Source: Micromonospora sp. WMMD1102
GTDB lineage: Bacteria; Actinomycetota; Actinomycetes; Mycobacteriales; Micromonosporaceae
DNA length: 64,000 nucleotides
Direction: 5' to 3'
Assembly (NCBI RefSeq): GCF_029626265.1
Contig: NZ_JARUBN010000001.1
Span: forward strand, 3,534,001-3,598,000
In this document: positions 32,028-50,210 of the stretch, piece by piece
How the letters are laid out: every line of letters starts with the position of its first letter
Position numbering within the stretch: position 1 is the first letter of the stretch
Notes under the pieces: model-generated
What the model was told of the DNA's origin: nothing
Seen by the model: the letters and a program-made list of their open reading frames with translations, nothing else
The model's database searches: none
Made by a program: the position numbers and the translations under genes

Positions 32028-34859
32028 ATGGACGAGAGGTACGACGCGTACTGCGCGGTCGATCCGCTGTTCTACGACTCCCTCGGCACGACCTCCGCCA
32101 CCGCCTCCGGCGGGTTCGCGGCTGCCGGCCGACCCGTGCCGGCCGGCTGGCAGCGCGAGCCCAAGGACGACTGGCTGGTCTACGGCCCGGTCGACGGCAA
32201 GCTGCCCCAGCAGGGCTGGAAAATTCACGTCTCGGCCTGCCTGGACAACGCCGACCGGATCCTGGACGACGTCTTCGACTACTGCGTACCCCGGGGAATG
32301 TCGTTCAAGTTCCTCCGTGGCCCGCGGATGCTGCTGATGCGCAACTCGAAGTACGCCCGGCGCGGCTCCAGCGGCAAGTTCGTCACCATCTATCCCCGGG
32401 ACGAGGCCGAACTCGAACTGGCCTGCAAGGAACTCGCCGAGCGACTCGACGGCGAGTCCGGCCCGTACATCCTCAGCGACCTGCGCTACGGCACCGGCCC
32501 ACTCTACGTCCGGTACGGCGGATTCGCCGCCCGGTACTGCGTCAGCGCCGACGGCCAGGTGGTGCCCGCCGTCGAGGACGGCACCGGCACCCTGGTACCG
32601 GACCGGCGCGACCCGGTCTTCCACGTACCGGACTGGGTGAGCCTGCCGGAGTTCCTCGGCCCGCACCTCGCCGCCCGGAACGCGACCACCACAAGCGACC
32701 TGCCGTACCGGATCGAACGGGTGATCCACTTCTCCAACGGCGGCGGCCTGTACGTCGGCCGGGACACCCGCACCGACACCCAGGTGGTGCTGAAGGAGGC
32801 CCGCCCGCACGCCGGGCTGGACGCCAACGGCACCGACGCGATGACCCGGCTGCACCGCGAGGCGGAGATGCTGCGCCGGCTCGCCGACGTGCCAGGCATC
32901 GCCCGGGTGCACGACGAGTTCGTCCTCGGCGAGCACCACTTCCTCGCCCTGGAGTTCGTCGAGGGACGGGCGCTGAACAAGCTGGTCGTCGAGCGCTACC
33001 CGCTGGTCGACGCCGACGCCACCCCGGCCGAGCTGGCCGACTACACGGAGTGGGCGCTGCGGATCCACGCCCAGGTGGAGCGGACCGTACGCGCGATCGC
33101 CGCACACGGCATCGTCTACGGCGACCTGCACCTGTTCAACATCATGGTCGGGCCGGACGACCGGGTCACCCTCGTCGACTTCGAGGTCGCCGCGCCGGTC
33201 GCCGAGGCGGGCCGACCCGCCCTGCGCAACCAGGCGTTCGCCGCCCCGCGCGACCGGACCGGGCTCGCCGTCGACCGGTACGCCCTGGCCTGCCTCCGCC
33301 TCGCCCTGTTCCTGCCGCTGACCCAGATGGTCCGGCTGGCCCCGGCAAAGGCCGGGCACCTCGCCGACGTCGTCGCCGCGCACTTCCCGGTGCCACGCGA
33401 CTTCCTGGACGCGGCGGTCGCCGAGATCACCGGCAGTACCGCCCGCCCCGGCGACCGACCGGCCCAGCGCGCCGACGCGGAGACAGCAGCCCGACCCGAG
33501 CACCCGGCGCGGGCCGGTACGAGCCACCAGGTACCCGGGGCCGACGACTTCGCCACCGGCCGTTCGGCCTGGCCACGGCTGCGCGACCGGATCGCCGGCG
33601 CGATCCTGGCCAGTGCCACACCGGAGCGCGACGACCGGCTCTTCCCCGGCGACATCGAGCAGTTCCGCACCGACGGCCTGAACCTCGGTTACGGCGTGGC
33701 CGGAGTGCTGTACGCCCTGCACGCCGCCGGCGCCGGCCGGCACCCGGAGCACGAGGACTGGCTGGTGAAGCGGGCCCTGCACCCGACCTCCGGCACCCGC
33801 TGCGGCTTCTACGACGGCCTGCACGGGGTGGCGTACGCCCTGGAGCACCTCGGCCGGCGGCAGGACGCGCTCGACGTACTCGACATCTGCCTCGGAGAGC
33901 CCTGGGAAGAACTCGGCGAGGACCTGGTGAGTGGGCTCTCCGGCATAGCGCTCAACCTCGCCGAGATGGCCGGCCGGACCGGCGAACCGACGTTGCGGCA
34001 GGCTGCCTGGCGCGCCGCCGAACTGGTCGCCGACCGGTCGACCGACGGCGCCGGTGCGCCGGCCGGAGGCGACACCGCCGGCAGCACCGGCGCCGGAGTG
34101 CCGCAGGTCAGCGGCGGCCAGCACCCGTACGCGGGACTGACCCGCGGACGCAGCGGCCCGGCCCTGATGTTCCTCCGGCTCTACGAGTGCGGCGGAGACA
34201 CCGAACTGCTGGACCGGGCCGGCGACGCACTCCGGGCCGACCTGCGCCGCTGCGTACTGCGCCCGGACGGTGCGCTGGAGGTCAACGAGGGCTGGCGGAC
34301 CATGCCCTACCTGGCGCACGGTAGTGTCGGCATCGGAGCGGTGCTCGACCAGTATCTCCGGCACCGACCGGACCCGGAACTCGCCGAATCCGCCGCCGCC
34401 ATCCGGCGGGCCGCCCGCGCCCCGTTCTACGCACAGTCCGGACTCTTCGCCGGGCGGGCCGGCATCATCGCCTACCTCGCCGCACGGACGGCCCAGCAGA
34501 GCCGGCCAGATCATGCCGAACTGGACGGCGCTGAGCAGCACCACGCTGAGCAGCACCACGCTGAGCAGGACCACGCTGAGCAGGACCGGGCCGAACTGGA
34601 CCGCCAGGTGCGGCGGCTGGCCTGGCACGCGCTGCCGTACCGGGGCTTCCTCGCCTTCCCCGGCGAGCAACTGCTCCGGCTGTCGACGGACCTGGCCACC
34701 GGGAGCGCGGGCGTACTGCTCGGCACCGCGGCGGCCTGGCACGACGAGCCGGTGACACTGCCCTTCCTCGCGCCGCTTACCGGCGCGACCAGACTCCCTT
34801 CGCTGCCGCGAGGGGCACACCCTTCGCTGCGGCGAGGGGCACATCGGACCGACATCTAG
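32028..34859 (+). CDS. ramC: Class III lanthipeptide synthetase LanKC (RamC-like)
   Basis: This 943-aa trifunctional enzyme phosphorylates Ser/Thr of the precursor, eliminates phosphate to dehydro residues and cyclises with Cys. The N-terminal lyase domain (1-220) includes WKIHVSACLDNADRILDDVF. The kinase domain (about 235-440) has VVLKEARPH (Lys256), IVYGDLHLFNIMV (Asp366, Asn371) and LVDFEVA (Asp384). The LanC-like cyclase domain (about 530-920) has GLNLGYGVAGVLYAL and HGSVGIG but lacks the LanC zinc ligands, as expected for class III. A 6 x 5-residue repeat interrupts the C-terminal part. GAGGAG precedes ATG 32028, and the precursor gene follows by 16 bp. Confidence 0.95.
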   Translation: MDERYDAYCAVDPLFYDSLGTTSATASGGFAAAGRPVPAGWQREPKDDWLVYGPVDGKLPQQGWKIHVSACLDNADRILDDVFDYCVPRGMSFKFLRGPRMLLMRNSKYARRGSSGKFVTIYPRDEAELELACKELAERLDGESGPYILSDLRYGTGPLYVRYGGFAARYCVSADGQVVPAVEDGTGTLVPDRRDPVFHVPDWVSLPEFLGPHLAARNATTTSDLPYRIERVIHFSNGGGLYVGRDTRTDTQVVLKEARPHAGLDANGTDAMTRLHREAEMLRRLADVPGIARVHDEFVLGEHHFLALEFVEGRALNKLVVERYPLVDADATPAELADYTEWALRIHAQVERTVRAIAAHGIVYGDLHLFNIMVGPDDRVTLVDFEVAAPVAEAGRPALRNQAFAAPRDRTGLAVDRYALACLRLALFLPLTQMVRLAPAKAGHLADVVAAHFPVPRDFLDAAVAEITGSTARPGDRPAQRADAETAARPEHPARAGTSHQVPGADDFATGRSAWPRLRDRIAGAILASATPERDDRLFPGDIEQFRTDGLNLGYGVAGVLYALHAAGAGRHPEHEDWLVKRALHPTSGTRCGFYDGLHGVAYALEHLGRRQDALDVLDICLGEPWEELGEDLVSGLSGIALNLAEMAGRTGEPTLRQAAWRAAELVADRSTDGAGAPAGGDTAGSTGAGVPQVSGGQHPYAGLTRGRSGPALMFLRLYECGGDTELLDRAGDALRADLRRCVLRPDGALEVNEGWRTMPYLAHGSVGIGAVLDQYLRHRPDPELAESAAAIRRAARAPFYAQSGLFAGRAGIIAYLAARTAQQSRPDHAELDGAEQHHAEQHHAEQDHAEQDRAELDRQVRRLAWHALPYRGFLAFPGEQLLRLSTDLATGSAGVLLGTAAAWHDEPVTLPFLAPLTGATRLPSLPRGAHPSLRRGAHRTDI
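34515..34604 (+). repeat. Six 15-bp tandem units inside ramC
   Basis: Six in-frame 15-bp units encode AELDG, AEQHH, AEQHH, AEQDH, AEQDR and AELDR near residues 830-859. The central units differ by one or two bases. They form an insertion in the cyclase domain, between YLAARTAQQS and QVRRLAW. Confidence 0.9.
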
Positions 34860-34875
34860 GAGGAGGTGAACACAC

Positions 34876-35004
34876 ATGGCGCTTCTGGACCTTCAGGGGA
34901 TGGAGCTGACCGACCGCACCGGTGGTGGCGGCGGTGGCGGCGGTAGCCGCGCGAGCCTGCTGCTGTGCGGCGACAGCTCGCTGTCCGTGACGACCTGCGA
35001 CTGA
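34876..35004 (+). CDS. ramS: SapB-like class III lanthipeptide precursor (RamS)
   Basis: This 42-codon gene encodes MALLDLQGMELTDRT, then eight glycines (16-23), then the core SRASLLLCGDSSLSVTTCD. As I recall it, the S. coelicolor SapB core differs only at V/I and D/N in this stretch. Two Ser-x2-Ser-x3-Cys units (Ser24/Ser27/Cys31 and Ser34/Ser37/Cys41) are the class III ring-forming pattern. The leader has the LLDLQ recognition motif. A strong GGAGGAGGTGAA site lies 7 nt upstream. The product, after modification by RamC and export, should be an amphiphilic peptide that lowers surface tension for aerial growth. Confidence 0.95.
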   Translation: MALLDLQGMELTDRTGGGGGGGGSRASLLLCGDSSLSVTTCD

Positions 35005-35017
35005 TCAGGTCAGCATC

Positions 35018-35057
35018 GGGGCCCTGGGTGGGCAGACGTCCCCACCCAGGGCAACCC
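35018..35057 (+). terminator. Attenuator-like hairpin between ramS and ramA
   Basis: CCCTGGGTGGG (35022-35032) pairs with CCCACCCAGGG (35041-35051) around an 8-nt loop, and flanking GGGG/CCCC can extend it. It starts 13 nt after the ramS stop and ends before the ramA ribosome-binding site. It could terminate part of the transcripts, or protect the ramS 3' end, so that precursor is made in excess of transporter. Confidence 0.7.
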
Positions 35058-35081
35058 CGTGTCCGAAGGAGGGTGGTACGC

Positions 35082-36941
35082 GTGGCCGCCGACCGGAACC
35101 GACCGCCCGGAGCAGACGGGAACCGGCTGTTCCGGCAGGCTGTCGCGTACGGCGGCGGTTGGACCGTCACCCTCGCTGCCGCCGCGCTGCTCGGCGCGGC
35201 GGCCGAACTGCTGTTGCCGGCCGCCCTCGGGCTGGCCGTGGACGCCGCGCTCGGCGGGGCGGACCGGTGGTGGCCGCTCGCCGCCTGCGGCCTGGTCCTG
35301 CTGATCGTCGCCACCGACACGCTGGGCAACCTGGCCGGCGGCGCCGGTACCGCCCGGACCACCGCCCGGCTGCGGCACCGACTGCTGGGTCACGTGCTCG
35401 CGCTCGACCCGCGCCGCGCCGCCCGCTATCCGGTGGGCGACCTGGTCGGCCGGCTGGCCGGGCAGGCCGCCGACACCGGGCAGGCCGGCGCCACGGTCGT
35501 GACCGGAGTGGCCGCCGCACTTCCCCCGCTGGGCAGCGTCGTCGCGCTGCTGCTGCTCGACTGGCGCCTCGCCGTCACCTTCGGCGCCGGGCTGCTGGTG
35601 CTCGCCGTCGGCCTGCGCGCCTTCGTCGCCGACGCCTCGACGGCCGCCGCCGGCTACCTCGGGGCGCAGGGCCGGATCGCCGGGCGGCTCGCCGAGGCGC
35701 TGCACGGTGCCCGTACGATCGCCGCCGCCGGGACCGTCCGGGCCGAGATCGACCGGGTACTGGCACCGCTGCCGCTGCTGCGCGCACACGGTACCGGCAC
35801 CTGGGCCGCACTGGCCAGGGCCTCGGGTCGGACTGCCACGGTGGCCCCGCTGCTGCAACTGGCGATCGTCGCCGTCGGCGGCTGGTCGGTGGCCGACGGG
35901 CGGCTCACTCCCGGCCAGCTCTTCGCCGCGATGCAGTACGCCGCGCTCGGCGCCGGCCTCGGCAGCATCGTCGCCACGCTCAACCGGCTGGTCCGGACCC
36001 GGGCCGGAGCGCGCCGGGTCGCCGCCGTACTGGCCGAACCGCCCCGGTCGTACGGGACGGCGCCGCTGCCTCCGGGCAACGGTCGGCTGGTCCTGGCCGG
36101 GGTGAGCGTCTACGCCGACGACGGCCGGCCGGTGCTGGACGGGATCGAGCTGCGGGTGCCGCCCGGCGCCACGATCGCCGTCGTCGGCCCGTCCGGGGCC
36201 GGCAAGTCGACCCTGGCCGCGCTCGCCGGCCGGCTCCGCGACCCGGATGCCGGCGAGGTGCTGCTGGACGGGACGCCGCTGCGCCGGCTGAGCCGCGCCG
36301 CCCTGCACCACGCGGTCGGGTACGGCTTCGAGCGGCCGGTGCTGATCGGCGACACGATCGCGGAGGCGGTCACGCTGGGGCGGTCGGAACCCGGGCAGCC
36401 CGGGACCGGACAGGCGAGTACCAGGCAACCCGAGAGTGGGCAGGCGAATACCGGGCAGCCCGAGGATGGGCAGCCGGAGACGGCGCAGGTCGCCGGGGTG
36501 GTCCGGGCCGCCGCGATCGAGGAGTTCGTGCAGCGGCTGCCGGACGGCTACCACAGCCGGCTCGACGCGACGCCGATGTCCGGGGGTGAGGCGCAGCGCC
36601 TCGGCCTGGCCCGGGCGCTGCACGCCGATCGGTTGCTGGTCCTCGACGACGCGACGTCCAGCCTGGACACCGCGACCGAGCACCGGATCGCGGCGGCGGT
36701 CGCCGCGCACCCGGATCGACGTACCCGACTGGTCGTGACCCACCGGGTGACCACCGCCGCCGCCGCCGACCTGGTCGCCTGGCTGGACGGCGGCCGGTTG
36801 CGTGACCTCGGCCCGCATCGGGAGCTGTGGCGGGACGCGGACTACCGGGCGGTCTTCGCGGCCTCGGACCCACCCGCGACGGAACCGGCGGAACCGGCGC
36901 CCACGGCGGAACCGGCGGTCACGGTCAGGGTGGTCCGGTGA
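35082..36941 (+). CDS. ramA: ABC half-transporter, permease-ATPase fusion (RamA-like)
   Basis: This 619-aa exporter subunit has an N-terminal six-helix ABC membrane domain (about residues 20-310) and an ATPase domain. Walker A is GPSGAGKSTLAALAG near residue 368, the signature MSGGEAQRLGLARAL near 499. Walker B is LLVLDDATSSLD, where the catalytic Glu is Asp, so this site may be weak; the H-loop VVTHRVTT is intact. A repeat-rich insert of about 33 residues (GQPGTGQASTRQ and similar) lies between the Q-loop region and the signature. GTG 35082 has AAGGAGGG 8 nt upstream. It probably forms a heterodimer with RamB to export the lanthipeptide. Confidence 0.92.
   Translation: MAADRNRPPGADGNRLFRQAVAYGGGWTVTLAAAALLGAAAELLLPAALGLAVDAALGGADRWWPLAACGLVLLIVATDTLGNLAGGAGTARTTARLRHRLLGHVLALDPRRAARYPVGDLVGRLAGQAADTGQAGATVVTGVAAALPPLGSVVALLLLDWRLAVTFGAGLLVLAVGLRAFVADASTAAAGYLGAQGRIAGRLAEALHGARTIAAAGTVRAEIDRVLAPLPLLRAHGTGTWAALARASGRTATVAPLLQLAIVAVGGWSVADGRLTPGQLFAAMQYAALGAGLGSIVATLNRLVRTRAGARRVAAVLAEPPRSYGTAPLPPGNGRLVLAGVSVYADDGRPVLDGIELRVPPGATIAVVGPSGAGKSTLAALAGRLRDPDAGEVLLDGTPLRRLSRAALHHAVGYGFERPVLIGDTIAEAVTLGRSEPGQPGTGQASTRQPESGQANTGQPEDGQPETAQVAGVVRAAAIEEFVQRLPDGYHSRLDATPMSGGEAQRLGLARALHADRLLVLDDATSSLDTATEHRIAAAVAAHPDRRTRLVVTHRVTTAAAADLVAWLDGGRLRDLGPHRELWRDADYRAVFAASDPPATEPAEPAPTAEPAVTVRVVR
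36391..36490 (+). repeat. Degenerate tandem repeat inside ramA
   Basis: About 100 bp of imperfect repeats of the type GGGCAGCCCG(G/A) and ACAGGCGAGTACC encode a Gly/Gln/Pro/Thr-rich insert (TGQ, SGQ, DGQ triplets). The insert sits in a surface loop of the RamA ATPase domain. Confidence 0.75.
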
Positions 36942-36973
36942 ACGGGGTGGTCCGGTGAACGGGGTGGTCCGGT
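36929..36973 (+). repeat. 17-bp tandem duplication at the ramA/ramB junction
   Basis: GGTGGTCCGGTGAACGG occurs at 36929-36945 and 36946-36962, with a third partial copy (36963-36973). The first copy holds the ramA stop (GTGA), the second the ramB start codon. Confidence 0.9.
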
Positions 36974-38781
36974 TCAGCGTCGCCGCGCTGCGTCGTCGGG
37001 CGGGTCCGCTCGGCCGGCTCGCCGGTTGGTCGATCGCCGAGGCGTTGCCGGTCCTGCTCGCCGGTTACCTGACCGCCCGGGCCGTCGACGACGGGTTCCT
37101 GGCCGGCCGGCCGGGCACCGGGCTGGCCTGGCTGGGCGTACTGGCCGTCGCGGTGCTGATCGGTGCGGTCGGCACCAACCGGGCGTACGCCCGGCTCGGC
37201 GACGTGGTCGAGCCGTTCCGGGACGAGTTGGCGCAGCGGGTGGTCGCCGGGGCGCTGTACCGGTCGACCTCCACCGGGGCCCGGCCGGAGACCGCAGCGG
37301 TGGCCCGGCTGACCCATCAGGTGGAGATCGTCCGGGACACCTTCGCCGGACTGGTGATGGTGGTCCGGGGTTTCCTGTTCAGCGCCGGGGCGGCCCTGAT
37401 CGGCCTGAACTCGCTGGACCCGCTGGTCGCGGGCGTGGTGGCGGTACCGCTGGTCGCCGGGCTGGCACTCTTCGCCGCCGCCCTGCCGGCGATGGTGTCG
37501 CGGCAGCGTGACTACGTGCACGCCGACGAGCGACTCGGTGAGGCGGCCGGGGCGGCGTTCACCGGGCACCGGGACGTGGTGGCCTGCGGCGCGCAGCGGT
37601 TCGTCGCCGAGCGGGTGGGCCGGCAGGTGGACCGGCAGGCCGACGCCGAGCACGCGCTGGCCCGGATGGCCGCGCTGCGCAGCCTCAGTCTGGCGGTCGG
37701 CGGCTGGCTGCCGCTGGCGGTACTGCTGCTGGCCGCACCCTGGCTGGTCCGGCGCGGCCTCACCGCCGGTGCGGTGCTCGGCGCCCTGGTGTACGTCGCC
37801 ACCGGTCTCCAGCCCGCCCTGCACGCCCTGGTGCAGGGGGTCGCCGGCGGCGGACTCCGGTTCGCGGTGACCCTGCACCGCATCCTCGCCGCCACCGCAC
37901 CCCCGACCCCCGCACCCTCAGCCGCACCCGGCGGCACACCCCCGGGGTACGCCAGCACCGCGCTACCGACCGGATCCGGCAGGGCGCTTCCGACCGGACC
38001 CGCCGCGACGGCCCGGATCGACACCTGTCGGGGTCCCGCCCCGGTCCGGGCCGAACTGCGCGGGGTGACCTTCCGATACGGCCCGCGCGCCCGCCCGGTC
38101 CTCGACGGCTTCGACCTCACCCTCGCCGACGGGGCGCACCTGGCGGTGGTGGGGCCGAGCGGTGCCGGCAAGTCCACCCTGGCCGGGTTGCTCGCCGGGC
38201 TGCTCCACCCGCAGGCCGGCACGGTGCTGCTCGGCGGGACACCGGTCGGTGCCGCCGACCCCGCGACCCTGGCCCGGCACCGGGTACTCATCCCGCAGGA
38301 GGCGTACGTCTTCACCGGCAGCCTGCTGGACAACCTGCGCTACCTCCATCCCGACGCGCCGGACGACCGGGTGGACGAGGCGGTGCACCGGCTCGGCCTA
38401 CTGCCGCTGGTACGCCGCCTCGGCGGGCTCTCCGCGACGCTGGACCCCGGCACGCTCTCCGCCGGTGAACGGCAACTGGTCGCGGCGGCACGCGCCTACC
38501 TCTCCCCCGCCCCGCTGGCGGTCCTGGACGAGGCGACCTGTCACCTGGACCCGGTGGCCGAGGCGACGGTCGAGGAGGCGTTCGGCAGTCGACCGGGTGC
38601 GCTGGTGGTGGTCGCCCACCGGATCAGCTCCGCGCTGCGCGCCCGGCACGTGCTGATCCTGAACGGCGGTCGCCCGTTGCACGGCCGGCACGACGAGCTG
38701 CTGACCCGCTCGGCGACCTACCGGGAGCTGGTCGGGCACTGGCAGGGCCGGCCGGTTTCCGCCGAGGCGCCCGCTATATAG
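36955..38781 (+). CDS. ramB: ABC half-transporter, permease-ATPase fusion (RamB-like)
   Basis: This 608-aa partner of RamA has a membrane domain at about residues 15-310 and an ATPase with Walker A GPSGAGKSTLAGLLAG near residue 403. It has the atypical signature LSAGERQLVAAAR, Walker B LAVLDEATCHLD with the catalytic Glu, and H-loop VVAHRISS. A Pro/Ala/Thr-rich linker (about residues 312-355) joins the domains. GTG 36955 (VNGVVRFSVAALRRR) is the only start consistent with the frame. It lies 13 bp after the ramA stop because of the 17-bp duplication, whereas the first copy would have given a GTGA overlap in a different frame. Confidence 0.9.
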   Translation: MNGVVRFSVAALRRRAGPLGRLAGWSIAEALPVLLAGYLTARAVDDGFLAGRPGTGLAWLGVLAVAVLIGAVGTNRAYARLGDVVEPFRDELAQRVVAGALYRSTSTGARPETAAVARLTHQVEIVRDTFAGLVMVVRGFLFSAGAALIGLNSLDPLVAGVVAVPLVAGLALFAAALPAMVSRQRDYVHADERLGEAAGAAFTGHRDVVACGAQRFVAERVGRQVDRQADAEHALARMAALRSLSLAVGGWLPLAVLLLAAPWLVRRGLTAGAVLGALVYVATGLQPALHALVQGVAGGGLRFAVTLHRILAATAPPTPAPSAAPGGTPPGYASTALPTGSGRALPTGPAATARIDTCRGPAPVRAELRGVTFRYGPRARPVLDGFDLTLADGAHLAVVGPSGAGKSTLAGLLAGLLHPQAGTVLLGGTPVGAADPATLARHRVLIPQEAYVFTGSLLDNLRYLHPDAPDDRVDEAVHRLGLLPLVRRLGGLSATLDPGTLSAGERQLVAAARAYLSPAPLAVLDEATCHLDPVAEATVEEAFGSRPGALVVVAHRISSALRARHVLILNGGRPLHGRHDELLTRSATYRELVGHWQGRPVSAEAPAI

Positions 38782-38791
38782 GGTTGCCTCG

Positions 38792-40270
38792 ATGGCAGCC
38801 ACCCACGTACTCGGTCTCAGCGCGCTGTCGCACGACGCGTCGGCGTGTGTGGTCCGGGGCGACGAGATCCTCTTCGCCGGCCACGCCGAGCGGTACTCGC
38901 GCCGCAAGAACGACCCGGACCTCGCCCCCGGCCTGCTGGCCGAGGCGCTCTCCTGGGGTCGTCCCGACCTGGTCGCCTGGTACGAGCGTCCGCTGCGCAA
39001 GAAGCTCCGACACGTACGCGCCGGGCAGTTCCGGCACGCCGTCGCCGTCGACGACCTGCCCCGCCGGCACCTGGCCCGGCTCGGCCTGCCGGAGCTGCGC
39101 GGCGTCCCGGTCCGGTACGTCGGGCACCACCACTCGCACGCCGCCGCCGGGTACTTCACCAGCGGCGAGCGGCATACGGCGGTGCTCACCGCCGACGCGA
39201 TCGGCGAGTTCGAGACGCTGACCCTGGGCGAGTTCCGGGACGGCGTCTACCGGGTCTTCGCCCGCTGCCGCTATCCGCACAGCCTCGGCCTGCTCTACAG
39301 CGCCTTCACCCGGCGCTGCGGGTTCAGCCCGAACGAGGAGGAGTTCATCGTGATGGGGCTGGCGGCGCTCGGCCGGCCCCGGTACGTCAGGCAGCTCAAG
39401 GCGGATCTGATCGAGTTGACCCCGCCCACCTTCCGGCTGCGCCGCAACGTGCACCGGGGTATCGGCGACTGGCAGCCCCGGGCCGATCTGGCGGACCTGG
39501 CCGCGAGCATCCAGGTGGTGACCGAGGAGGTACTGCTCACGGCGGCGCGCTGGCTGCGTGCCCGGGTCGATGCCGGGACGCTTACCGTGATGGGCGGACT
39601 GGGTCTCAACTGCGTCGCCAACGAGTTGCTCGCCCGGCACAGCGGCTTCGACCGGGTCACCCTGTTGCCGAACCCCGGGGACGCCGGGTCGAGCCTCGGC
39701 GCGGCGGCGGCGGTGCTGCGGCACCAGCTGAACTGGGCCGGGCCGTACCTGGGCACCCTGATCGGCGGTGACTATCCGGTCGCCGCCCTGGCCGAGGCGC
39801 TGGCCGCCGGGGCGGTGGTCGGGGTGGCGCGGGGTCGTGCCGAGTTCGGTCCCCGGGCGCTGGGCAACCGCTCGCTGCTGGCCGATCCACGTGCCGCCGA
39901 CAGCCGGGACCGGGTGAACCAGGTGAAGGGGCGGGAGCCGTTCCGCCCGTTCGCCCCGGTGGTCCGGCAGGAGCTGGCCGGACGGTACTTCGAGATGCCG
40001 GTCGACGCGTCGCCGTACATGCAGTTCACCGCCCGCTGCCGGGATCCACGGGCCTTTCCCGGCATCGTGCACGTGGACGGGACGTCCAGGGTGCAGACCG
40101 TGACCCGGGCCCAGCACCCCGGCCTCTACGACCTGCTCGGCGAGTACGAACGGCGGACCGGCTGCCCGATCCTGCTGAACACGAGCCTGAACCTGAAGGG
40201 TGAACCGCTGGTCAACGACGTGTCGGACGCCCGGCGGTTCAGCACCCGGACCGGGGTACCCGTGCTGTGA
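38792..40270 (+). CDS. NodU/CmcH-type O-carbamoyltransferase
   Basis: This 492-aa enzyme is predicted to transfer a carbamoyl group from carbamoyl phosphate, via carbamoyl-AMP, to a hydroxyl. The Kae1-like domain opens VLGLSALSHDASACVV and has the metal-site VGHHHSHAAAGYFTS and MGGLGLNCVAN. The C-terminal YrdC-related domain has ARGRAEFGPRALGNRSLLADPR and LNTSLNLKGEPLVND. It is slightly shorter than typical NodU/CmcH. It begins 10 bp after ramB with no clear ribosome-binding site; TATATA (38775-38780) overlapping the ramB stop could be a -10 box. Its acceptor may be the lanthipeptide or a sugar (inference). Confidence 0.88.
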   Translation: MAATHVLGLSALSHDASACVVRGDEILFAGHAERYSRRKNDPDLAPGLLAEALSWGRPDLVAWYERPLRKKLRHVRAGQFRHAVAVDDLPRRHLARLGLPELRGVPVRYVGHHHSHAAAGYFTSGERHTAVLTADAIGEFETLTLGEFRDGVYRVFARCRYPHSLGLLYSAFTRRCGFSPNEEEFIVMGLAALGRPRYVRQLKADLIELTPPTFRLRRNVHRGIGDWQPRADLADLAASIQVVTEEVLLTAARWLRARVDAGTLTVMGGLGLNCVANELLARHSGFDRVTLLPNPGDAGSSLGAAAAVLRHQLNWAGPYLGTLIGGDYPVAALAEALAAGAVVGVARGRAEFGPRALGNRSLLADPRAADSRDRVNQVKGREPFRPFAPVVRQELAGRYFEMPVDASPYMQFTARCRDPRAFPGIVHVDGTSRVQTVTRAQHPGLYDLLGEYERRTGCPILLNTSLNLKGEPLVNDVSDARRFSTRTGVPVL

Positions 40271-40320
40271 TCCGGACTCGGGCGTCGTAGGGCGGGTCGG
40301 TGCGGTGCCGGTGGGTCGGG

Positions 40321-40953
40321 TCAGCGCGGTGCCGGTGGCCGCCGGTAGACCCCGTACCACCAGATCGACGCGAGTTCGCGGGCGAAGGCGGCATCGCCGT
40401 CGGGACCGGCACCGGAGCTGGTGACATGGTCGACGATCGCGGCCTGGCCGCCGGCCACGATCACCCGGCCGGCGGAGGGGACGTCGACATCGGCCGGCGC
40501 CCGCCCGGCCCGCTGCTCCTCGGCGAGCAGCCGTACCGTGTTGTCCAGGAAGCGGACCAGGCCAGCGCCCCAGAACTCGCGTACCGCCGGGTCGTAGGCG
40601 GCGACCTCGTTGACTGCGTTGATCACGGCCGCGTACCTGCGGTAGATCCCGACTATCCGGTGGAAGGCGTCGGCCAGCGCGTCCACGCCGTCCTCCGGCC
40701 GCCACGAGCTGGCGACATCGAAGCCGGCCGACTGCATCGTGCCGGCCAGCCGCATCAGCAGTTCGGACTTGTCCCGGAAGTGGGTGTAGAAGGTCGACCG
40801 GGCCACTCCGGCCGCCGACGCGATCCGCTGCACCCCGAGCTCGGTGAAGCTCGCCCCCTCGACCAGCAGCCGCTCGGTGGCGGCGAGGACCTGAGCCTCC
40901 ACCGAGGCCCGGCGGTCGGGATCGGGCGCACGGCGCCGGGTGATCGATGGCAT
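40321..40953 (-). CDS. TetR family transcriptional regulator
   Basis: This 210-aa regulator has an N-terminal HTH (VQRIASAAGVARSTFYTHFRDKSELL near residues 38-63) and an all-helical ligand domain. The start ATG 40953 gives MPSITRRRAPDPDRR; a longer upstream frame would run into IS remnant sequence. It converges on the carbamoyltransferase gene, with 50 bp between the stops. There is no adjacent divergent target on the promoter side, only the IS remnant, so its regulon is unclear. Confidence 0.88.
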   Translation of the reverse strand: MPSITRRRAPDPDRRASVEAQVLAATERLLVEGASFTELGVQRIASAAGVARSTFYTHFRDKSELLMRLAGTMQSAGFDVASSWRPEDGVDALADAFHRIVGIYRRYAAVINAVNEVAAYDPAVREFWGAGLVRFLDNTVRLLAEEQRAGRAPADVDVPSAGRVIVAGGQAAIVDHVTSSGAGPDGDAAFARELASIWWYGVYRRPPAPR

Positions 40954-40968
40954 GCCGGAAATCTTAAA

Positions 40969-41129
40969 GCGTGTTTGGGATGGGGGTTGTTCAGGTGCAG
41001 GTGAGGGTGCGGATGCTTCTCCCTCCGGCCGTCCGTGTTCGGCTCCGGCGACAGCGGCTCGATCAGCGCCCACTGGGCATCGGTCAGGTCCGAATCGGAT
41101 AATCGACGACAGCCGTCGCGGCTGTGCAC
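40969..41129 (-). pseudogene. IS5-family transposase remnant
   Basis: On the minus strand the frame from about 41129 reads RRLSDSDLTDAQWALIEPL then PEPNTDGRREKHP, the characteristic N-terminus of IS5-group actinobacterial transposases. After about 42 residues the homology stops at HP, and sequence resembling an element end (AACAACCCCCATCCCAAACA) follows. The rest of the transposase, including the DDE catalytic core, is missing. It looks like an internally deleted element. Confidence 0.7.
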
Positions 41130-41196
41130 TCGTCAAACCTCCGACAGCGTCAGCATCGCCGCGACGCAACTGTTGCGGATCCCTTTCGCGCCCTGC

Positions 41197-41727
41197 TCAG
41201 TCCTCGTCCTGCCACCTGCGTAGATCCGTCTGGTCATGATAGGCCATGCGGTCCGGCGTGGTGATGAATTCCATCGTCGTGCCCCAGGGCATGCGGCAGT
41301 AGCAGACCTTGTTTCCAGGACCATTCTCGGTTGCATAGGGAATAGTGCGAGGCGCCGTGAGTGGGGTGCCTCCGGCCCTTTCGAAGCGCTCGACCGAGGC
41401 GTCGATGTCGTCAGTGTAGAGAGCGAAGTGCGTGATGCCGAAGTCGCTCGCCCGGATCGGCTGGGCTTGTTCGGGGCCGTGCATCTCGAAGAGCTCGATA
41501 TCGGGTCCGGTTCCGATCTTGACCATCGCCTGCGCGCGCACGGCCGTTCCAGGGAAAGCGCCAACGGCCCGCTCGAATTCGGGTCCCTGCCGCGGCGGAT
41601 CCTGCGGTCCGAAGGACTGATAGATCACCTGGCCGCCGAAAGCTTCCACCAGGAACGATTTTGCGGCTTCGATGTCGGGCACCGTGATACCGATATGATT
41701 GACGCCGCGAATGACAGGTGCGGTCAT
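41197..41727 (-). CDS. VOC (glyoxalase/bleomycin-resistance fold) family protein
   Basis: This 176-aa protein has the VOC pattern GVNHIGITVPDIEAAKSFLVEAFGG at the N-terminus and FGITHFALYTDDIDASVERFERAGG in the second half, with the usual His and Glu metal-ligand positions. The function is unknown; lyase, dioxygenase or isomerase are possible. Codon use is less GC-extreme than in flanking genes. It lies 105 bp after the alpha/beta hydrolase gene on the same strand, between an IS5 remnant and a degraded region, so it looks horizontally acquired. Confidence 0.82.
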   Translation of the reverse strand: MTAPVIRGVNHIGITVPDIEAAKSFLVEAFGGQVIYQSFGPQDPPRQGPEFERAVGAFPGTAVRAQAMVKIGTGPDIELFEMHGPEQAQPIRASDFGITHFALYTDDIDASVERFERAGGTPLTAPRTIPYATENGPGNKVCYCRMPWGTTMEFITTPDRMAYHDQTDLRRWQDED

Positions 41728-41832
41728 GACAGTTCTCCTTTCTTATTCAATCGATCGATCGGGATAGGCGCGGGCGCAACTTGCCCGCAGTGTCGCGATC
41801 CGCCCGGCCCACGACGGCACGGTCGCAGAGCT

Positions 41833-42681
41833 TCACTTGGCCTCGAGGAGATCGATCAGAGCGGCCGTGACCTCATCCGGCCGTTCGTCCGCGACGAAGT
41901 GGCCGCACCGCGCAATCGAGCCGCCCGTCACATTGCTGGCAAACTCCTTGAGCATCGGCACCATCTGCGCACCGAAGCGCTGATCCCCGCCGAGTCCTAG
42001 CACCGGCATCTCGAGCGGTTGCTTCTTGTACTCGAGCGCCGCCGCATGGTCGGCGGCGAGGGTCCGATACCATTCCATGCCGCCGCGGGTGCGGCCAGGA
42101 AGCGCCATCGCTTCCGCGTAGATCTCGATGTCCGCCGGGTCGAGGGTGCTGTGATCATAGAACCGCTCAGACATGAAGGCCGAAATATAGTCATATTCAC
42201 GGCCATGGAGCAGGCGCTCGGGTAGATCCCGGTTCATATGGAAGCTGAAGTGCCAGAGTCCTGCGGTCGTCGCCTCCCATCCGGTCCAGCCGGGAAGCGG
42301 AACGTCGAGGACGGCCAGGTGGGTAACAGCCTCCCGATAGATGGCGGCCTGCGGCAGGGCGACCATTCCGCCGATGTCATGTCCGCACACGGCGTAGCGT
42401 TCATACCCAAGGGCAACCATGACTTCGTGCGCGTCGCGCGCCATCGTCGCCTTGTCATAGCCGTCGAGCGGGCAGTCGGAAAAGCCCGCGCCGCGCAGAT
42501 CGACGGCCACCACGCTGAAATGCTCGGCCAGCAGTGGCATCACCTTGTGCCATCCCCACCATGTTCCCGGCCAGCCGTGAAACAGAAGGATCGGCGGGCC
42601 TGAGCCTCCCGTGACAGCATTGATCTTGATGCCATTCGCCGGCACCAGTTGCTGGGTAAAACCCTTCAGAGTTGCGATCAT
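41833..42681 (-). CDS. Alpha/beta hydrolase, epoxide hydrolase-like
   Basis: This 282-aa enzyme has the oxyanion motif LLFHGWPGTWWGW near residue 35. The nucleophile elbow is VCGHDIGGMVAL, so the nucleophile is Asp as in epoxide hydrolases and haloalkane dehalogenases, not Ser. The cap region has FHMNRDLPERLLHGREYDYI, and the catalytic His is probably in IARCGHFVADERPDEV. ATG 42681 gives MIATLKGFTQQLVPANGIKIN. Composition and codon choice are unlike the surrounding actinomycete genes and look proteobacterial (impression, not calculated). It is co-oriented with the VOC gene. Confidence 0.85.
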   Translation of the reverse strand: MIATLKGFTQQLVPANGIKINAVTGGSGPPILLFHGWPGTWWGWHKVMPLLAEHFSVVAVDLRGAGFSDCPLDGYDKATMARDAHEVMVALGYERYAVCGHDIGGMVALPQAAIYREAVTHLAVLDVPLPGWTGWEATTAGLWHFSFHMNRDLPERLLHGREYDYISAFMSERFYDHSTLDPADIEIYAEAMALPGRTRGGMEWYRTLAADHAAALEYKKQPLEMPVLGLGGDQRFGAQMVPMLKEFASNVTGGSIARCGHFVADERPDEVTAALIDLLEAK

Positions 42682-42733
42682 GATCGCTTTCCAGTTCAGA
42701 TGTTGACGTTCAAACAGAGCTCGCGACCAGCGC

Positions 42734-42811
42734 TCAGGGCTGGCCGAAATCGGTGGCGATCGTGATGTCGCGCCAGGCGTCGATATCACTGCGGAAGGCA
42801 GCAGCTTCCGC
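42734..42811 (-). pseudogene. C-terminal coding remnant
   Basis: A 25-codon minus-strand fragment reads EAAAFRSDIDAWRDITIATD and ends FGQP-stop. It looks like the C-terminus of a longer protein from the same foreign segment as the hydrolase gene. It is preceded in frame by a stop codon and has no start. The family is not recognised. Confidence 0.35.
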
Positions 42812-43000
42812 TCAGATCGACCAGTCCTTACGCGTCCGAGACCAAGCTACCGCGACCAGGTAGCTTCCGGGCACATAACTGGTCAGGTCCCGTGAGAGGG
42901 GCGTCGCCCCAAGTTTGGCCAGGGCGGGGTGCACGGTGGTGGCCTGGTCGAGCAGGTCGATGCCGATGGTGTTGTCGCTGGCCTGGCGGCGATAACGATG
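42812..43000 (-). pseudogene. Second coding remnant, truncated at its 5' side
   Basis: The minus-strand frame ending at TGA 42812-42814 reads IGIDLLDQATTVHPALAKLG then TPLSRDLTSYVPGSYLVAVA. It has coding-like amino acid use but no identifiable start. The upstream boundary is approximate. The family is not recognised. Confidence 0.35.
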
Positions 43001-43122
43001 ACGCGAGCAGCAGGCCGAGGGTGTCGGTGAACGAACCGGGGGACCCGGGGACCCGGGGGCCGAGGAGAACGTGGTTTACCGGTGCACGCCGAGCCGTCGA
43101 CCACGACACGAAGGGGCAGAGA

Positions 43123-44160
43123 GTGAAATACCGCCTGTTGGGGCGTACCGGAGTGTGGGTTTCCGAGATCTCGCTGGGGGCGATGACCTTCGGTGGGGTG
43201 AACCACCCGATCTACCGCCAGTTGGGCGCCCTGGGCCGGGCCGAGGTGGACACGGTCGTCGGCACCGCCCTCGATGCCGGGATCAACTTCGTCGACACCG
43301 CAGACGTCTACAGCGACGGCGAATCGGAGGAACTGCTCGGCGAGGTACTCGGGCGTCGACGCCGGGACGTCGTACTCGCCACCAAGGTGCACGCCCCGAC
43401 GGGTCCGGGCCCCAACGACCACGGCCAGTCCCGACTGCACGTCATGCGGGCCCTGGAGGACAGTCTGCGCCGGCTGCGCACCGACCATATCGATCTTTAC
43501 CAGCTCCACAACTTCGACCACCTGACCCCGTTCGAGGAGACGCTGCGCGCGCTCGACGACGCCGTACGCCAGGGCAAGGTGCGCTACATCGGTTGCGCCA
43601 ACCTGGCCGCCTGGCAGGTCAGCCGCGCACTCGGCGTCTCCGCCCGGCACGACTGGGCCGGTTTCGTCTCCGTGCAGGCCCACTACTCGCTGGTCGGTCG
43701 GGACGCCGAGCGGGATCTGCTGCCGATGGCCGAGGCGGAGGGCGTGGGGCTGACGGTGTGGAGCCCGCTGGCCGGCGGCTTCCTCACCGGCAAGGCCGAC
43801 CGGACCGGCACGGTGAACGACGGCGGTTCCCGGCGGGCACATCCGGAGTACTCCCAGTTCCCGCTGATCGATCCGGCCCGCGGGCACGACGTACTCGATG
43901 TGCTGCGAGCGGTGGCCGCGCGGCACGAGGTGAGCCCGGCCCGGGTCGCACTCGGCTGGCTGCTGCACCGACCGGCGGTCACCAGCGTCATCGTCGGTGC
44001 CCGCCGGGTCGACCAGCTGGCGGACAACATCGCCGCCACCGAGCTGACCCTGGACGCCCGGGACCTCGCCGAACTCGACGAGGTGAGCAGCCTGCCGCCG
44101 GCTTATCCGAACTGGATCCAGCAGGCGTTCGCCCCGGCCCGGTCACCCCGGCAGACCTGA
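43123..44160 (+). CDS. Aldo/keto reductase
   Basis: This 345-aa NADPH-dependent reductase starts VKYRLLGRTGVWVSEISLGAM and contains the catalytic tetrad regions: Asp/Tyr in FVDTADVYSDGESEELLG, Lys in VVLATKVHAPTG and His in IDLYQLHNFD. The C-terminal NADPH loop is SVIVGARRVDQLADN. It belongs to the AKR family of YghZ/YajO-like enzymes with broad carbonyl substrates. GTG 43123 has AAGGGG 8 nt upstream. It is monocistronic and followed by a strong terminator. Confidence 0.9.
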   Translation: MKYRLLGRTGVWVSEISLGAMTFGGVNHPIYRQLGALGRAEVDTVVGTALDAGINFVDTADVYSDGESEELLGEVLGRRRRDVVLATKVHAPTGPGPNDHGQSRLHVMRALEDSLRRLRTDHIDLYQLHNFDHLTPFEETLRALDDAVRQGKVRYIGCANLAAWQVSRALGVSARHDWAGFVSVQAHYSLVGRDAERDLLPMAEAEGVGLTVWSPLAGGFLTGKADRTGTVNDGGSRRAHPEYSQFPLIDPARGHDVLDVLRAVAARHEVSPARVALGWLLHRPAVTSVIVGARRVDQLADNIAATELTLDARDLAELDEVSSLPPAYPNWIQQAFAPARSPRQT

Positions 44161-44297: not shown

Positions 44298-44897
44298 TCA
44301 GATCCAGCCCTTCTCCCGGGCGATCCGGATCGCCTCGATCCGGGTACGCGCTCCCGTCTTGCCGGCGATCCGGGACAGATGGTTACGGACAGTACCGGCG
44401 GACAGAGACAGCTTGCTGGCGATCTCCACCACCGGCCATCCTTCGGCAGCGATCTCCAGCACCTCCACCTCCCGTGCGGTGAGCGGGTTGTCGCGGTTGA
44501 GCGCCGCGACCACCAGGTCCGAGTCCACCACGGACCCCCCGCAGGCGAGCCGGCGGACCGCCTCGATCACCCGTTCCGGGGCGACGTCGCTGCCGAGGAA
44601 GCCGAGTCGCTGGCAGGTGGCACGCAAGGCGTTCCCCAGCACCCGTGGCCGGCGCGGGTCCACCAGGACCAGCACCGGAGGCGGTTCGGACGGCGCGACC
44701 GCACCGGAGAGTACCCCCGCTCCGAAGAGTTTGAGGTCCGCGACGGCCACGTCGGGACGCTGCATCCGCAGCGCCACGCCGATATCCTCGGCTCGATCGA
44801 CCTCCGCCACCACCTCGATGTCGTCCTGAGTGGTCAGTACGAAGGCCAGGGCGCCACGGACGAGAGCGCCGTTCAGCGCGAGCAGCGTTCGGATCAC
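44298..44897 (-). CDS. Orphan LuxR-type response regulator with degenerate receiver
   Basis: This 199-aa NarL/FixJ-type regulator of the RamR/DesR-like group has receiver residues 1-115 and the LuxR HTH LTAREVEVLEIAAEGWPVVEIA with SAGTVRNHLSRIAGKTG near residues 140-185. The phosphoacceptor Asp54 is present (AVADLKLFG). The acidic pair normally at positions 8-9 is Leu-Asn, however, so phosphorylation is doubtful. There is no histidine kinase nearby. It is the paralogue of the gene directly upstream. Confidence 0.85.
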   Translation of the reverse strand: MIRTLLALNGALVRGALAFVLTTQDDIEVVAEVDRAEDIGVALRMQRPDVAVADLKLFGAGVLSGAVAPSEPPPVLVLVDPRRPRVLGNALRATCQRLGFLGSDVAPERVIEAVRRLACGGSVVDSDLVVAALNRDNPLTAREVEVLEIAAEGWPVVEIASKLSLSAGTVRNHLSRIAGKTGARTRIEAIRIAREKGWI

Positions 44898-47354: not shown

Positions 47355-48554
47355 ATGACGGCCCCCCGCCCACCAGTACTGCCCGTCGTGCAGTTCCGGA
47401 GCCGGGCCGGAAGCATCGACCTCGGCTGGGGGCACCCACATCCGGCCGCGCTGCCGGTGGACGCCTGGGCCGAGGCGACCCGGTCCGCCCTGCGCCGCTA
47501 CGGTGCCGCCGCGCTCACCTACGGCCACGCGGCCGGGCCGGGGCCACTTGTCGAGTGGCTCTGCGAGCGACTGGGCGAGGTGGACGCCGTACCGCCCGAG
47601 CCTGGCCAGGTCTTCGTCAGCGCGGGTGCATCGCACGCGCTCGACCTCGTCGCCGCCGTGCTCTGCCGCCCCGGCGACGTCGTCCTGGTCGACTCGCCCA
47701 CCTATCATCTGGCGCTGCGGGTCATCGCCGACCACCGGGTCGACACGGTACCCGCCCCCGCCGACCAGGACGGGATCGATCCTGCCGCCACCGGCGACCT
47801 GATCCGGGCGATCACCCGGCAGGGCCGCCGGGTCGCGATGCTCTACCTGGTGCCGACGTTCAACAACCCGACCGGGCGGTCGCTGCCGGCGGAGCGCCGG
47901 GCCGCTCTGCTGGCGATGGCCGCGGGCACCGGCGTGACGGTGGTGGAGGACGACACCTACCGGGAACTCGCCTACCCGGCGCCGGCGCCGCCCTCGCTGT
48001 TCAGCGCCGCCGAGCCGGGGACGGTCGTCCGGATCGGGTCGTTCGCCAAGAGCGTCGCGCCGGGGCTGCGGCTCGGCTGGCTGACCGGGGCCCGGTCGAT
48101 GGTCGGGGCGGTGACCGAGCGCGGGTACGTGGACAGTGGCGGCGGGGTCAACCACGCCAGCGCGCTGGCCATGACCGAGTTCGCGGCCGGCGGCGCCTAC
48201 CGGCGGCACGTGGCGGCGATCCGGGTCAGGTACCGCCGGCAGCGCGACGCGCTGGTGGCCGCCGTACGCGAGGAGTTGCCGCAGGCCGAGTTCGTGGTGC
48301 CCGGCGGCGGCTGGTTCCTCTGGCTGCGGCTGCCGCATCCGAACGCCGGTACCGCGCTGCTGCCGTACGCGGAGGCTGCCGGGGTCGGCTACCTGCCCGG
48401 TCGGCAGTTCTTCGTGGCCGACACCGGGCACCGTCACCTGCGACTGTCCTACTCGATGTGTGATCCGGAGACGTTGGCCGAGGCGGTGCGCCGGCTGGCC
48501 GTGGCGTACCGGGACGCCGGATTCCCGGCCCGCTCGACTCCGTTGCCGGGCTGA
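47355..48554 (+). CDS. PLP-dependent aminotransferase (class I/II, MocR-like catalytic domain)
   Basis: This 399-aa fold-type I enzyme has the PLP phosphate and substrate region FVSAGASHALDLVAAVL near residue 95, YLVPTFNNPTGRSLP near 170, and VVEDDTYRELAYP. The Schiff-base Lys is in RIGSFAKSVAPGLRLGW near 235. There is no N-terminal GntR domain, so it acts as a free aminotransferase (2-aminoadipate/aromatic type). Its neighbour, the convergent asparagine-synthetase homologue, may or may not be linked. Confidence 0.88.
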   Translation: MTAPRPPVLPVVQFRSRAGSIDLGWGHPHPAALPVDAWAEATRSALRRYGAAALTYGHAAGPGPLVEWLCERLGEVDAVPPEPGQVFVSAGASHALDLVAAVLCRPGDVVLVDSPTYHLALRVIADHRVDTVPAPADQDGIDPAATGDLIRAITRQGRRVAMLYLVPTFNNPTGRSLPAERRAALLAMAAGTGVTVVEDDTYRELAYPAPAPPSLFSAAEPGTVVRIGSFAKSVAPGLRLGWLTGARSMVGAVTERGYVDSGGGVNHASALAMTEFAAGGAYRRHVAAIRVRYRRQRDALVAAVREELPQAEFVVPGGGWFLWLRLPHPNAGTALLPYAEAAGVGYLPGRQFFVADTGHRHLRLSYSMCDPETLAEAVRRLAVAYRDAGFPARSTPLPG

Positions 48555-48629
48555 GCCTCGCGGCGCCGCCCCGCCCCGCTGCGCCCCGCCCCGCCCCGCC
48601 CCGCCGTCGAGGATTCAGCCGTCGGCGGT

Positions 48630-50210
48630 TCAGCCGTGCCGGCCGGAGCCGGTCAGCCGACGCCAGGCCGGGCCGACCTTCCACCTTGCCATCCCGGCCA
48701 GGTCGCGGGCGTGGTCGAGGACGTCCGGCCGGGCCGTGCCGGTGGCCACCGCGCGGTCGAGGTCGTGGCCGCAGCGCCGCAGTACGGTGTCGAAGTCCCG
48801 GCGCACCGGTTCCAACAGCTCGTAGCCGAACGCCCGGTACTGGCGGGCGAAGATCGCCCGGTACGGCCGCACTCCCTCGTACAACCCCGTGGCGTACGCG
48901 AGCTGCTCCGCCGGCCGGTCCCGGACGTACTCCGGCAGCAGGTCGGCGAACGCGTGCCGGAGGATCCAGCTCCGCCGGCCGTCCCGCAGTTTCACCCCGG
49001 CGGGCAGCCGCATCGCCAGCTCGACGAGCGACAGGTCGAGGAAGGGCAGCCGGGCCTCCACCCCGTGCCCGAACCCGGTCCGGTCCACCCGCTGCAACCC
49101 GGTACGGCACAGGTTGCGGATGCGGTGCCGGAAGAGCTGGCCGGCGGCTTCCGGGCCCACCGGGTCCGAGCCCGGGTGTCCACCGAAGAGGTGGTCGGCG
49201 CCGTCGCCGGTGAGCACCACCCGGACGCCGAGGTCCCGGACCCGCCGGAACAGTGGCACCGAGACGACCGCGTCGATCAGGTCGGCGTACTCGGTCAGCT
49301 CGGAGATCCGGATGGCCGCCCGGACGTCGTCGAGCTGGATGTCCCGGGGCCGCACCTCGATCACCTCGTGGTGCACGCCGAGTTCGGCGGCCAGCCGGCG
49401 AGCGTACCGCACGTCCGGGCTGTCCGCGGCGCCGACGGTGAACGCCACGCAGTCGTGGTGCAGTTGCTGGACGTGCAGCAGGGCGATGGTGCTGGCCAGG
49501 CCGCCGGAGAGGAGTACCCCGACGGTGAGGTCGGTGTCGACACGGGCCCGGACGCTGTCCCGGACGGCGGTGCGGAGCAGTTCCGCCGCCTCCTCGACGT
49601 CCCGCAGCGGCGGTTGCCCGGTGCCGAGCCGGGCCAGGTCCAGATAGGGCACCAGATCGGGTCCGCCGGTCGCGTCGGCCCAGCCGTGCTGCCCTGGCGG
49701 CAGTTCGGAGATCGGTGCGCCGACCGGTGCCAGCGCCTTGACCTCCGAGGCGACGTGCAGCCGGCGCAGGTGCCGGGACCAGTAGAGCGGACGCACGCCG
49801 AGCGGGTCGCGGGCCAGGTAGAGCCGTCCGGTGGCGGTGTCGGCGAGGGCGAGGGCGAACTCGCCGCGCAGCCGGGTGACCGCCTCCGGCCCCCAGGCCA
49901 GGAATGCCTCCAGCACCACCTCGGTGTCGCTGTCGGTGCGCGGCGGCCGGCCGAGCCTGGACAGCTCGGCCGCGAGTTCGCGATGGTTGTAGACCTCGCC
50001 GTTGTAGCAGAGCAGCCACCGGCCGTCGGCGGAGCACCAGGGCTGGACCGCCCGTTCCCGGTCGACGATCCGCAGCCGCTGCACGCCGGCCAGCAGTTCG
50101 GGACCGAGCCGGGTCTCGGCGAGGTCGCCACGCGGGGTGAGCTCCGCCATCATCCGGTGGAAGGTGCGGCGATCGGCGCCGGAACCGAGGGTTAGGACGA
50201 TGCCGGACAT
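48630..50210 (-). CDS. Asparagine synthetase-like protein with altered active sites
   Basis: This 526-aa homologue of AsnB keeps the glutaminase-domain fold motifs (CYNGEVYNHRELAAEL near residue 68, RTDSDTEVVLEAF near 91) and the synthetase domain (GVLLSGGLAST near 231, VVLTGDGADHLFGG, GVEARLPFLD). Position 2 is Ser instead of the glutaminase nucleophile Cys (MSGIV), and the PP-loop SGGxDS has Ala239 for Asp. It therefore probably does not hydrolyse glutamine and may act as an amide or beta-lactam-synthetase-like ligase, or be inactive. ATG 50210 has GGGAGG 9 nt upstream. Confidence 0.85.
   Translation of the reverse strand: MSGIVLTLGSGADRRTFHRMMAELTPRGDLAETRLGPELLAGVQRLRIVDRERAVQPWCSADGRWLLCYNGEVYNHRELAAELSRLGRPPRTDSDTEVVLEAFLAWGPEAVTRLRGEFALALADTATGRLYLARDPLGVRPLYWSRHLRRLHVASEVKALAPVGAPISELPPGQHGWADATGGPDLVPYLDLARLGTGQPPLRDVEEAAELLRTAVRDSVRARVDTDLTVGVLLSGGLASTIALLHVQQLHHDCVAFTVGAADSPDVRYARRLAAELGVHHEVIEVRPRDIQLDDVRAAIRISELTEYADLIDAVVSVPLFRRVRDLGVRVVLTGDGADHLFGGHPGSDPVGPEAAGQLFRHRIRNLCRTGLQRVDRTGFGHGVEARLPFLDLSLVELAMRLPAGVKLRDGRRSWILRHAFADLLPEYVRDRPAEQLAYATGLYEGVRPYRAIFARQYRAFGYELLEPVRRDFDTVLRRCGHDLDRAVATGTARPDVLDHARDLAGMARWKVGPAWRRLTGSGRHG

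Follow-up and report, generated by a model that had tools for sequence, protein, structure and literature searches.

Does a carbamoyltransferase gene that directly follows a SapB-type lanthipeptide operon act on the lanthipeptide, or does it serve another pathway? The ramCSAB and amf operons, which produce the class III lanthipeptides SapB and AmfS, have the gene order synthetase, precursor and two transporter genes. This order recurs in the window analysed here, a 64-kb stretch (3.534-3.598 Mb of an 8.9-Mb assembly) of Micromonospora sp. WMMD1102, where a gene for a NodU/CmcH-type carbamoyltransferase (CT) stands behind the operon. A sequence-only reading of the locus had proposed that CT tailors the peptide, and the locus is an obvious candidate for a carbamoylated lanthipeptide that genome mining would pick up. 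A carbamoylated SapB-like peptide would be new, and carbamoyltransferases appear to be very rare in pathways for ribosomally synthesized and post-translationally modified peptides (RiPPs). Our analysis points elsewhere. CT is probably a displaced member of a three-part carbamoylation unit, consisting of a tiny basic peptide, CT and a protein of the DUF6071 family, that has come to rest beside a standard SapB-type ramCSAB operon.

The partners that CT keeps in other lineages carry this conclusion. CT orthologues of about 60% identity were found outside the genus in S. hoynatensis (locus L036), genome G168 (L037) and genome G497 (L104). In each of these loci CT is followed by a gene for DUF6071, which has the GDSL/SGNH fold, and is preceded at a distance of 9-22 bases by a tiny basic open reading frame (ORF) ending in DPFLYK or DPHLYK. 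A plasmid collection held six records matching CT at E 1e-60, four from Streptomyces (59% identity) and two from Mesorhizobium (50%). Two of the former (L131, L132) and one of the latter (L133) were examined; DUF6071 again adjoins CT, and a frame ending in DPFMYK or DPFIYE lies at the CT start. The three genes are contiguous in all six loci, with DUF6071 on the other side in L133, and locus tags 24335 and 24330 of Nonomuraea SMC257 were counted as support beside them. The tiny ORF encodes 30-40 aa where its start is clear and has the C-terminus DP-F/H-L/M/I-Y-K/E; the Mesorhizobium frame offers no start codon but a TTG, 12 residues short of its end, which leaves its true extent uncertain. A search of the six loci for LanKC and RamS gave no match at E 1e-3, L104 being only 8.9 kb long. 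The tiny peptide and DUF6071, co-occurring with CT from Streptomyces to Mesorhizobium, are thus its better-supported partners.

The same three genes occur together, by genome content, in Plantactinospora, a genus of seven sampled genomes in which the window's genome was counted, also among its six CT-bearing members. CT orthologues (at least 62% identity) and DUF6071 were each detected in seven of 300 Micromonosporaceae genomes, and the seven are the same; the remaining CT matches listed at E 1e-60 among the 300 are 39-46% identical. A search pattern for the tiny peptide recovered six of 140 family genomes, exactly the six CT-bearing Plantactinospora of that draw. It gave no hit in the seventh Plantactinospora genome, G092, and a reversed control pattern gave none at all. 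Every CT-positive Plantactinospora (6/6) encodes all three parts, in a split arrangement. The tiny-peptide and DUF6071 genes of Plantactinospora lie apart from CT, about 3.1 Mb away in the window's genome, and bracket a sugar-type locus that encodes a cyclase fusion of the dehydroquinate (DHQ) synthase fold, GFO/IDH/MocA oxidoreductases, a xylose-isomerase-like protein, a ROK/ADH fusion and a GH5 protein. From this pattern we infer a functional link between the three products. No Pfam family matched the tiny peptide at E up to 1 (two peptides tested), comparison of the DUF6071 sequence with solved structures returned nothing convincing, and no mention of DUF6071 was found in the literature, nor, among the titles listed, any relevant paper on micropeptides and GDSL proteins. 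The unit, as a putative association, is a more novel observation than the pairing of CT with a SapB operon, and it offers a testable handle on the uncharacterised DUF6071 family and on part of the CT family, which is very large (at least 7999 candidates, none weaker than E 1e-40).

CT itself is, as modelled, a competent-looking NodU-type carbamoyltransferase. Both family domains, PF02543 and PF16861, and the full two-domain fold are present. The structure model (predicted local distance difference test, pLDDT, 92.6; predicted template-modelling score, pTM, 0.90; 33 sequences) matches VtdB, GdmN, NovN and TobZ over its length with template-modelling scores (TMq) of 0.83-0.90, the best match in the PDB being VtdB (7xb6, 0.90), with TobZ (3ver) at 0.85. 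Residues H112, H116, D135, K379 and S465 are invariant among the 33 sequences and H14 is conserved in at least 90%. By a numbering derived by hand from the alignment, with an offset of six in the structure chain, H14, K379 and S465 correspond to TobZ H14, K443 and S530, positions that were varied in solved TobZ structures. CT shares with these four enzymes both domains, the fold and the aligned catalytic residues, but its chain is shorter (492 aa) and its identity to them is only about 30%. A degenerate enzyme, or one fused to a peptide-binding domain, was considered and ruled out, since the fold is complete and the model contains no extra domain. Among the matches listed, the closest named orthologue outside the genus is P0006 of Actinosynnema sp. 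NPDC050436 (73%), and G497 was the sole additional genome at E 1e-120 in searches of 397 genomes from the order and 396 from the phylum, with G000 in both sets.

Selection has evidently maintained this enzyme. The mean ratio of nonsynonymous to synonymous substitution rates (dN/dS) over the genus, estimated from five genomes for LanKC and from six for the other genes, is 0.151 for CT, 0.136 for the RamR-like regulator and 0.156 for the neighbouring 199-aa LuxR-type regulator, as against 0.294 for LanKC, 0.284 for RamA, 0.310 for RamB and 0.270 for a nearby aminotransferase. CT is so strongly constrained that, by these estimates, it is functional and under strong purifying selection, and its rate of substitution is out of step with that of the lanthipeptide genes.

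The acceptor of CT is most likely a sugar or another small molecule. This assignment is suggested by the sugar-type locus between the other two partners, by the nearest solved structures, which are of small-molecule O-carbamoyltransferases, and by other clusters that combine a carbamoyltransferase with a GDSL/SGNH gene. Such a combination, with hypothetical genes in the same cluster, is found in the saxitoxin cluster (sxtI, sxtJ, sxtK, sxtL) and in a Pantoea cluster (pnp1B, pnp1D) (PMC2684587, PMC4010436); the likeness to the unit is one of gene content. In an ancestor of the six Plantactinospora, CT would have ended up between ramB and the LuxR-type regulators, and the tiny peptide and DUF6071 would have been left elsewhere, flanking the sugar-type locus. 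Like TobZ and VtdB, CT would use ATP and carbamoyl phosphate to form carbamoyl adenylate. The carbamoyl group would go to a hydroxyl on a product of the sugar, cyclitol or other small-molecule type, and the SGNH protein DUF6071 would trim or edit an ester or carbamate.

The gene content beside which CT would have come to lie was described correctly by the sequence-only reading: family models and open frames bear out LanKC, a 42-aa precursor, two ATP-binding cassette (ABC) half-transporters and CT, in that order at 32028-40270, with CT on the same strand and 10 bp behind ramB. LanKC scores 1099.5 bits against the class III model NF038151 (cut-off 575), and the precursor contains two Ser-x-x-Ser-x-x-x-Cys motifs of the SapB/AmfS type, SRASLLLC and SSLSVTTC. 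All five frames are free of internal stops, and third-position G+C is high in the four long genes (LanKC, ramA, ramB and CT). The pair of half-transporters and a nearby LuxR-type response regulator complete the likeness to ramCSAB and amf, and relatives of this RamR-like regulator adjoin ram genes in other Micromonosporaceae. Judged by gene family and order, the window carries a genuine SapB-type ramCSAB cluster. It is unlike the known operons in having CT between ramB and the regulators, an arrangement present in 6/7 Plantactinospora and in 0/59 other LanKC loci examined.

Neighbourhood comparison, which had been proposed as a check, showed that the adjacency extends through the genus. CT orthologues adjoin ram genes in six of the seven Plantactinospora genomes, are 89-93% identical to the window's CT and include close matches from P. 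mayteni, P. endophytica, P. alkalitolerans and P. soyae; a strain-specific accident is thereby ruled out. CT follows ramB directly in four of the six (gaps of 10, 30, 10 and 10 bp). In the other two, G058 (P. soyae) and G113 (P. alkalitolerans), a divergent GtrA-family gene (about 190 aa) separates them. The ram block of G092, with the LuxR pair beside it, is like the others but contains no CT, and the genome has no DUF6071. A 420-aa ORF behind its ramB (L044:11740-13002) is antisense to two LuxR genes, so G092 represents a CT-free arrangement.

Alignment of the sequences upstream of CT revealed the element TAG[A/G]GT-N7-ATG in all six CT-bearing Plantactinospora. Its TAG is the ramB stop codon in the window. 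Both genomes with the intervening GtrA gene retain the element, while the DNA preceding it is unrelated. A search of both strands of the 64-kb window found the strict pattern at a single site; a loose TANNNT version occurs 13 times. The element looks like a promoter belonging to CT, and a -10 box at that spacing would give a leaderless mRNA. By eye, no such element was visible upstream of DUF6071 or of the tiny-peptide gene.

Several observations weigh against the displaced-unit explanation. The AGGG within the window's element, for which the other five genomes have AGAG, could also be a weak ribosome-binding site, and no conserved -35 box was found upstream of the six CTs. A database search with one DUF6071 returned only 9 relatives at E 1e-5, far fewer than there are CT relatives; many of the latter may lack DUF6071, although a one-query search misses distant members. 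The six CT-bearing Plantactinospora form one clade, so that their split arrangement is one event. The connection to the sugar-type locus is one of neighbourhood, and this locus has in common with that of G168 only domain types and weak similarity (DHQ synthase 34-35%, GT2 29-31%). The S. hoynatensis copy of CT adjoins a nonribosomal peptide synthetase (NRPS), and no annotated sugar-biosynthesis operon was seen beside the Streptomyces plasmid copies (L131, L132); because of these two observations, the acceptor may differ between lineages. Finally, the short gaps behind ramB would permit read-through, and the position of CT beside ram in 6/6 genomes could mean selection for co-expression.

The last of these points leads to the alternative that fares best, in which the relocation was itself functional: CT would remain the partner of DUF6071 and the tiny peptide, with a glycan or small molecule as their target, and would be placed by ram for co-production with the morphogenetic peptide in aerial growth. 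The retention of this position in all six genomes despite gene gains around CT, and its location between ram and the RamR-like regulators, agree with such a role. When the upstream regions of ramC and CT were compared by eye, however, no ram-type element common to the two was visible, and CT has a promoter-like element of its own. We consider this explanation unlikely, if less so than those that follow.

The proposal of the sequence-only reading itself comes next, and we judge it improbable. CT would be a tailoring enzyme of the ram operon, and its product a class III lanthipeptide O-carbamoylated at a Ser/Thr hydroxyl left free in the dehydrated SapB-like core. In SapB, the residues that stay free are one Ser and the two Thr of the second ring. 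The tight spacing on one strand, the adjacency in 6/7 Plantactinospora and the purifying selection on CT all suit this proposal, as does the existence of RiPP carbamoyltransferases: CgnI (crocagin) and StdF (std cluster) are, as in the window, encoded near a ribosomal precursor, and one paper mentions carbamoyltransferases fused to RiPP recognition elements. StdF differs in being fused to a peptidase domain and in modifying lysine, whereas the window CT lacks a fused domain and RamS is an improbable substrate for it. According to a 2026 preprint, no well-characterised RiPP other than crocagin and the preprint's own has a carbamoyltransferase. In a survey of lanthipeptide clusters (PMC7268733) no carbamoyltransferase appears in the section on other enzymes and the word 'carbamoyl' is absent from the main text; across a literature represented mostly by abstracts and excerpts, no description of a carbamoylated lanthipeptide was found.

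The comparison of LanKC loci tells against the lanthipeptide as substrate. RamC_N matches occur in 87 of 150 Micromonosporaceae genomes, and 65 matches, listed down to E 1.1e-71, were sampled. The main loci of CT-bearing Plantactinospora account for five; the other 60 were examined, and none contains a CT match at E 1e-3. One of them, L102, is a contig-end piece of the LanKC of G113, whose CT lies on another contig, which leaves 59 counted loci, G092 included. In 52 of these, the sequence downstream of the LanKC start is 9.5 kb or longer, which is not the case for L102. CT accompanies the lanthipeptide cluster in one genus and in none of the 59 other loci. The sequence SRASLLLCGDSSLSVTTC is found in 6/6 CT-positive loci and in nine CT-free loci, including G092, so the core is the same with and without CT and a core changed to suit CT is ruled out. 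The motif ASLLLCGDSSLS is encoded in 22 of these 60 LanKC loci. Together with the divergent gene in 2/6 genomes, the promoter-like element in 6/6 and the six orthologous loci outside the genus where CT accompanies DUF6071 and the tiny peptide, these results leave the earlier interpretation divided: the ramCSAB cluster, the competent-looking enzyme and the adjacency in 6/7 genomes of the genus stand, and membership of CT in the lanthipeptide pathway is not supported. The nearness of CT to ram may mislead as to its function.

CT, DUF6071 and the tiny peptide, with its conserved C-terminal motif DP-aromatic/His-aliphatic-Y-K/E, might form an undescribed mobile carbamoylation system of Actinomycetota and Alphaproteobacteria. 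It would be minimal, RiPP-like in that the peptide would be the carbamoyl carrier or acceptor, and comparable to crocagin, with its parts dispersed over the chromosome in this genome and CT next to the SapB operon; we hold this to be a long shot. In L131 and L132, both from large linear Streptomyces plasmids, the unit lies 6-13 kb from the terminus, which suggests mobility. Least probable is a minimal RiPP-like pathway modelled on crocagin, with its 21-aa precursor, hydrolase CgnD and carbamoyltransferase CgnI, in which CT would carbamoylate the conserved C-terminal region of the tiny peptide and the SGNH-fold DUF6071 would cut or edit it.

Table 1. Coordinates of the features discussed (window positions unless a locus is given).
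Feature	Position	Strand	Basis or remark
LanKC, RamC-type class III lanthionine synthetase, 943 aa	32028..34859	+	PF25816 RamC_N, Pkinase, LANC_like; NF038151
SapB/AmfS-type precursor, 42 aa, core SRASLLLCGDSSLSVTTCD	34876..35004	+	PF19402 RamS and NF033212 SapB/AmfS, both above cut-off
RamA-type ABC half-transporter, 619 aa	35082..36941	+	PF00005, PF00664
RamB-type ABC half-transporter, 608 aa	36955..38781	+	PF00005 (scanned as 36940-38781); its TAG stop opens the TAGGGT element
TAGGGT-N7-ATG, candidate leaderless promoter (-10) of CT	38779..38794	+	upstream alignment; promoter function putative
NodU/CmcH-type carbamoyltransferase (CT), 492 aa	38792..40270	+	PF02543, PF16861, above cut-off
TetR-family regulator between CT and LuxR pair	40321..40953	-	PF00440 (scanned as 40321-40956)
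LuxR-type regulator, 199 aa, downstream border of ram block	44298..44897	-	PF00196; common gene order
RamR-like response regulator, 201 aa	44996..45601	-	PF00072 and PF00196; named RamR-like from domains and position only
Tiny basic ORF	L036:9850-9972		
Tiny basic ORF	L037, ends at 10602	-	
Tiny basic ORF	L104, L131, L132, L133; in Plantactinospora, L121-L126		
Intervening GtrA-family gene, G058 (P. soyae)	L038:9429-10001	divergent	
Intervening GtrA-family gene, G113 (P. alkalitolerans)	L040:5040-5624	divergent	

Further features were noted around the ram block (Table 1). The RamR-like regulator gene has a TTA codon at position 13, which would impose dependence on the rare leucyl tRNA. Between CT and the LuxR pair (40321-44160) lie genes for the TetR regulator, a glyoxalase, an alpha/beta hydrolase and an aldo/keto reductase; the G+C content of 40001-44000 is 0.669. 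This stretch varies by species, all four genes being absent in L033 (P. mayteni) and L034 (P. endophytica), and it looks like an insertion spot because of these differences in gene content. In eight loci of other Micromonosporaceae (L046, L047, L050, L051, L052, L055, L059, L062), two or three SapB-type precursor genes follow LanKC. Aminotransferase and asparagine-synthetase-like genes (47355-50210 in the window) adjoin the ram block in the genus, and the same aminotransferase also neighbours LanKC at three loci in another genus (g11).

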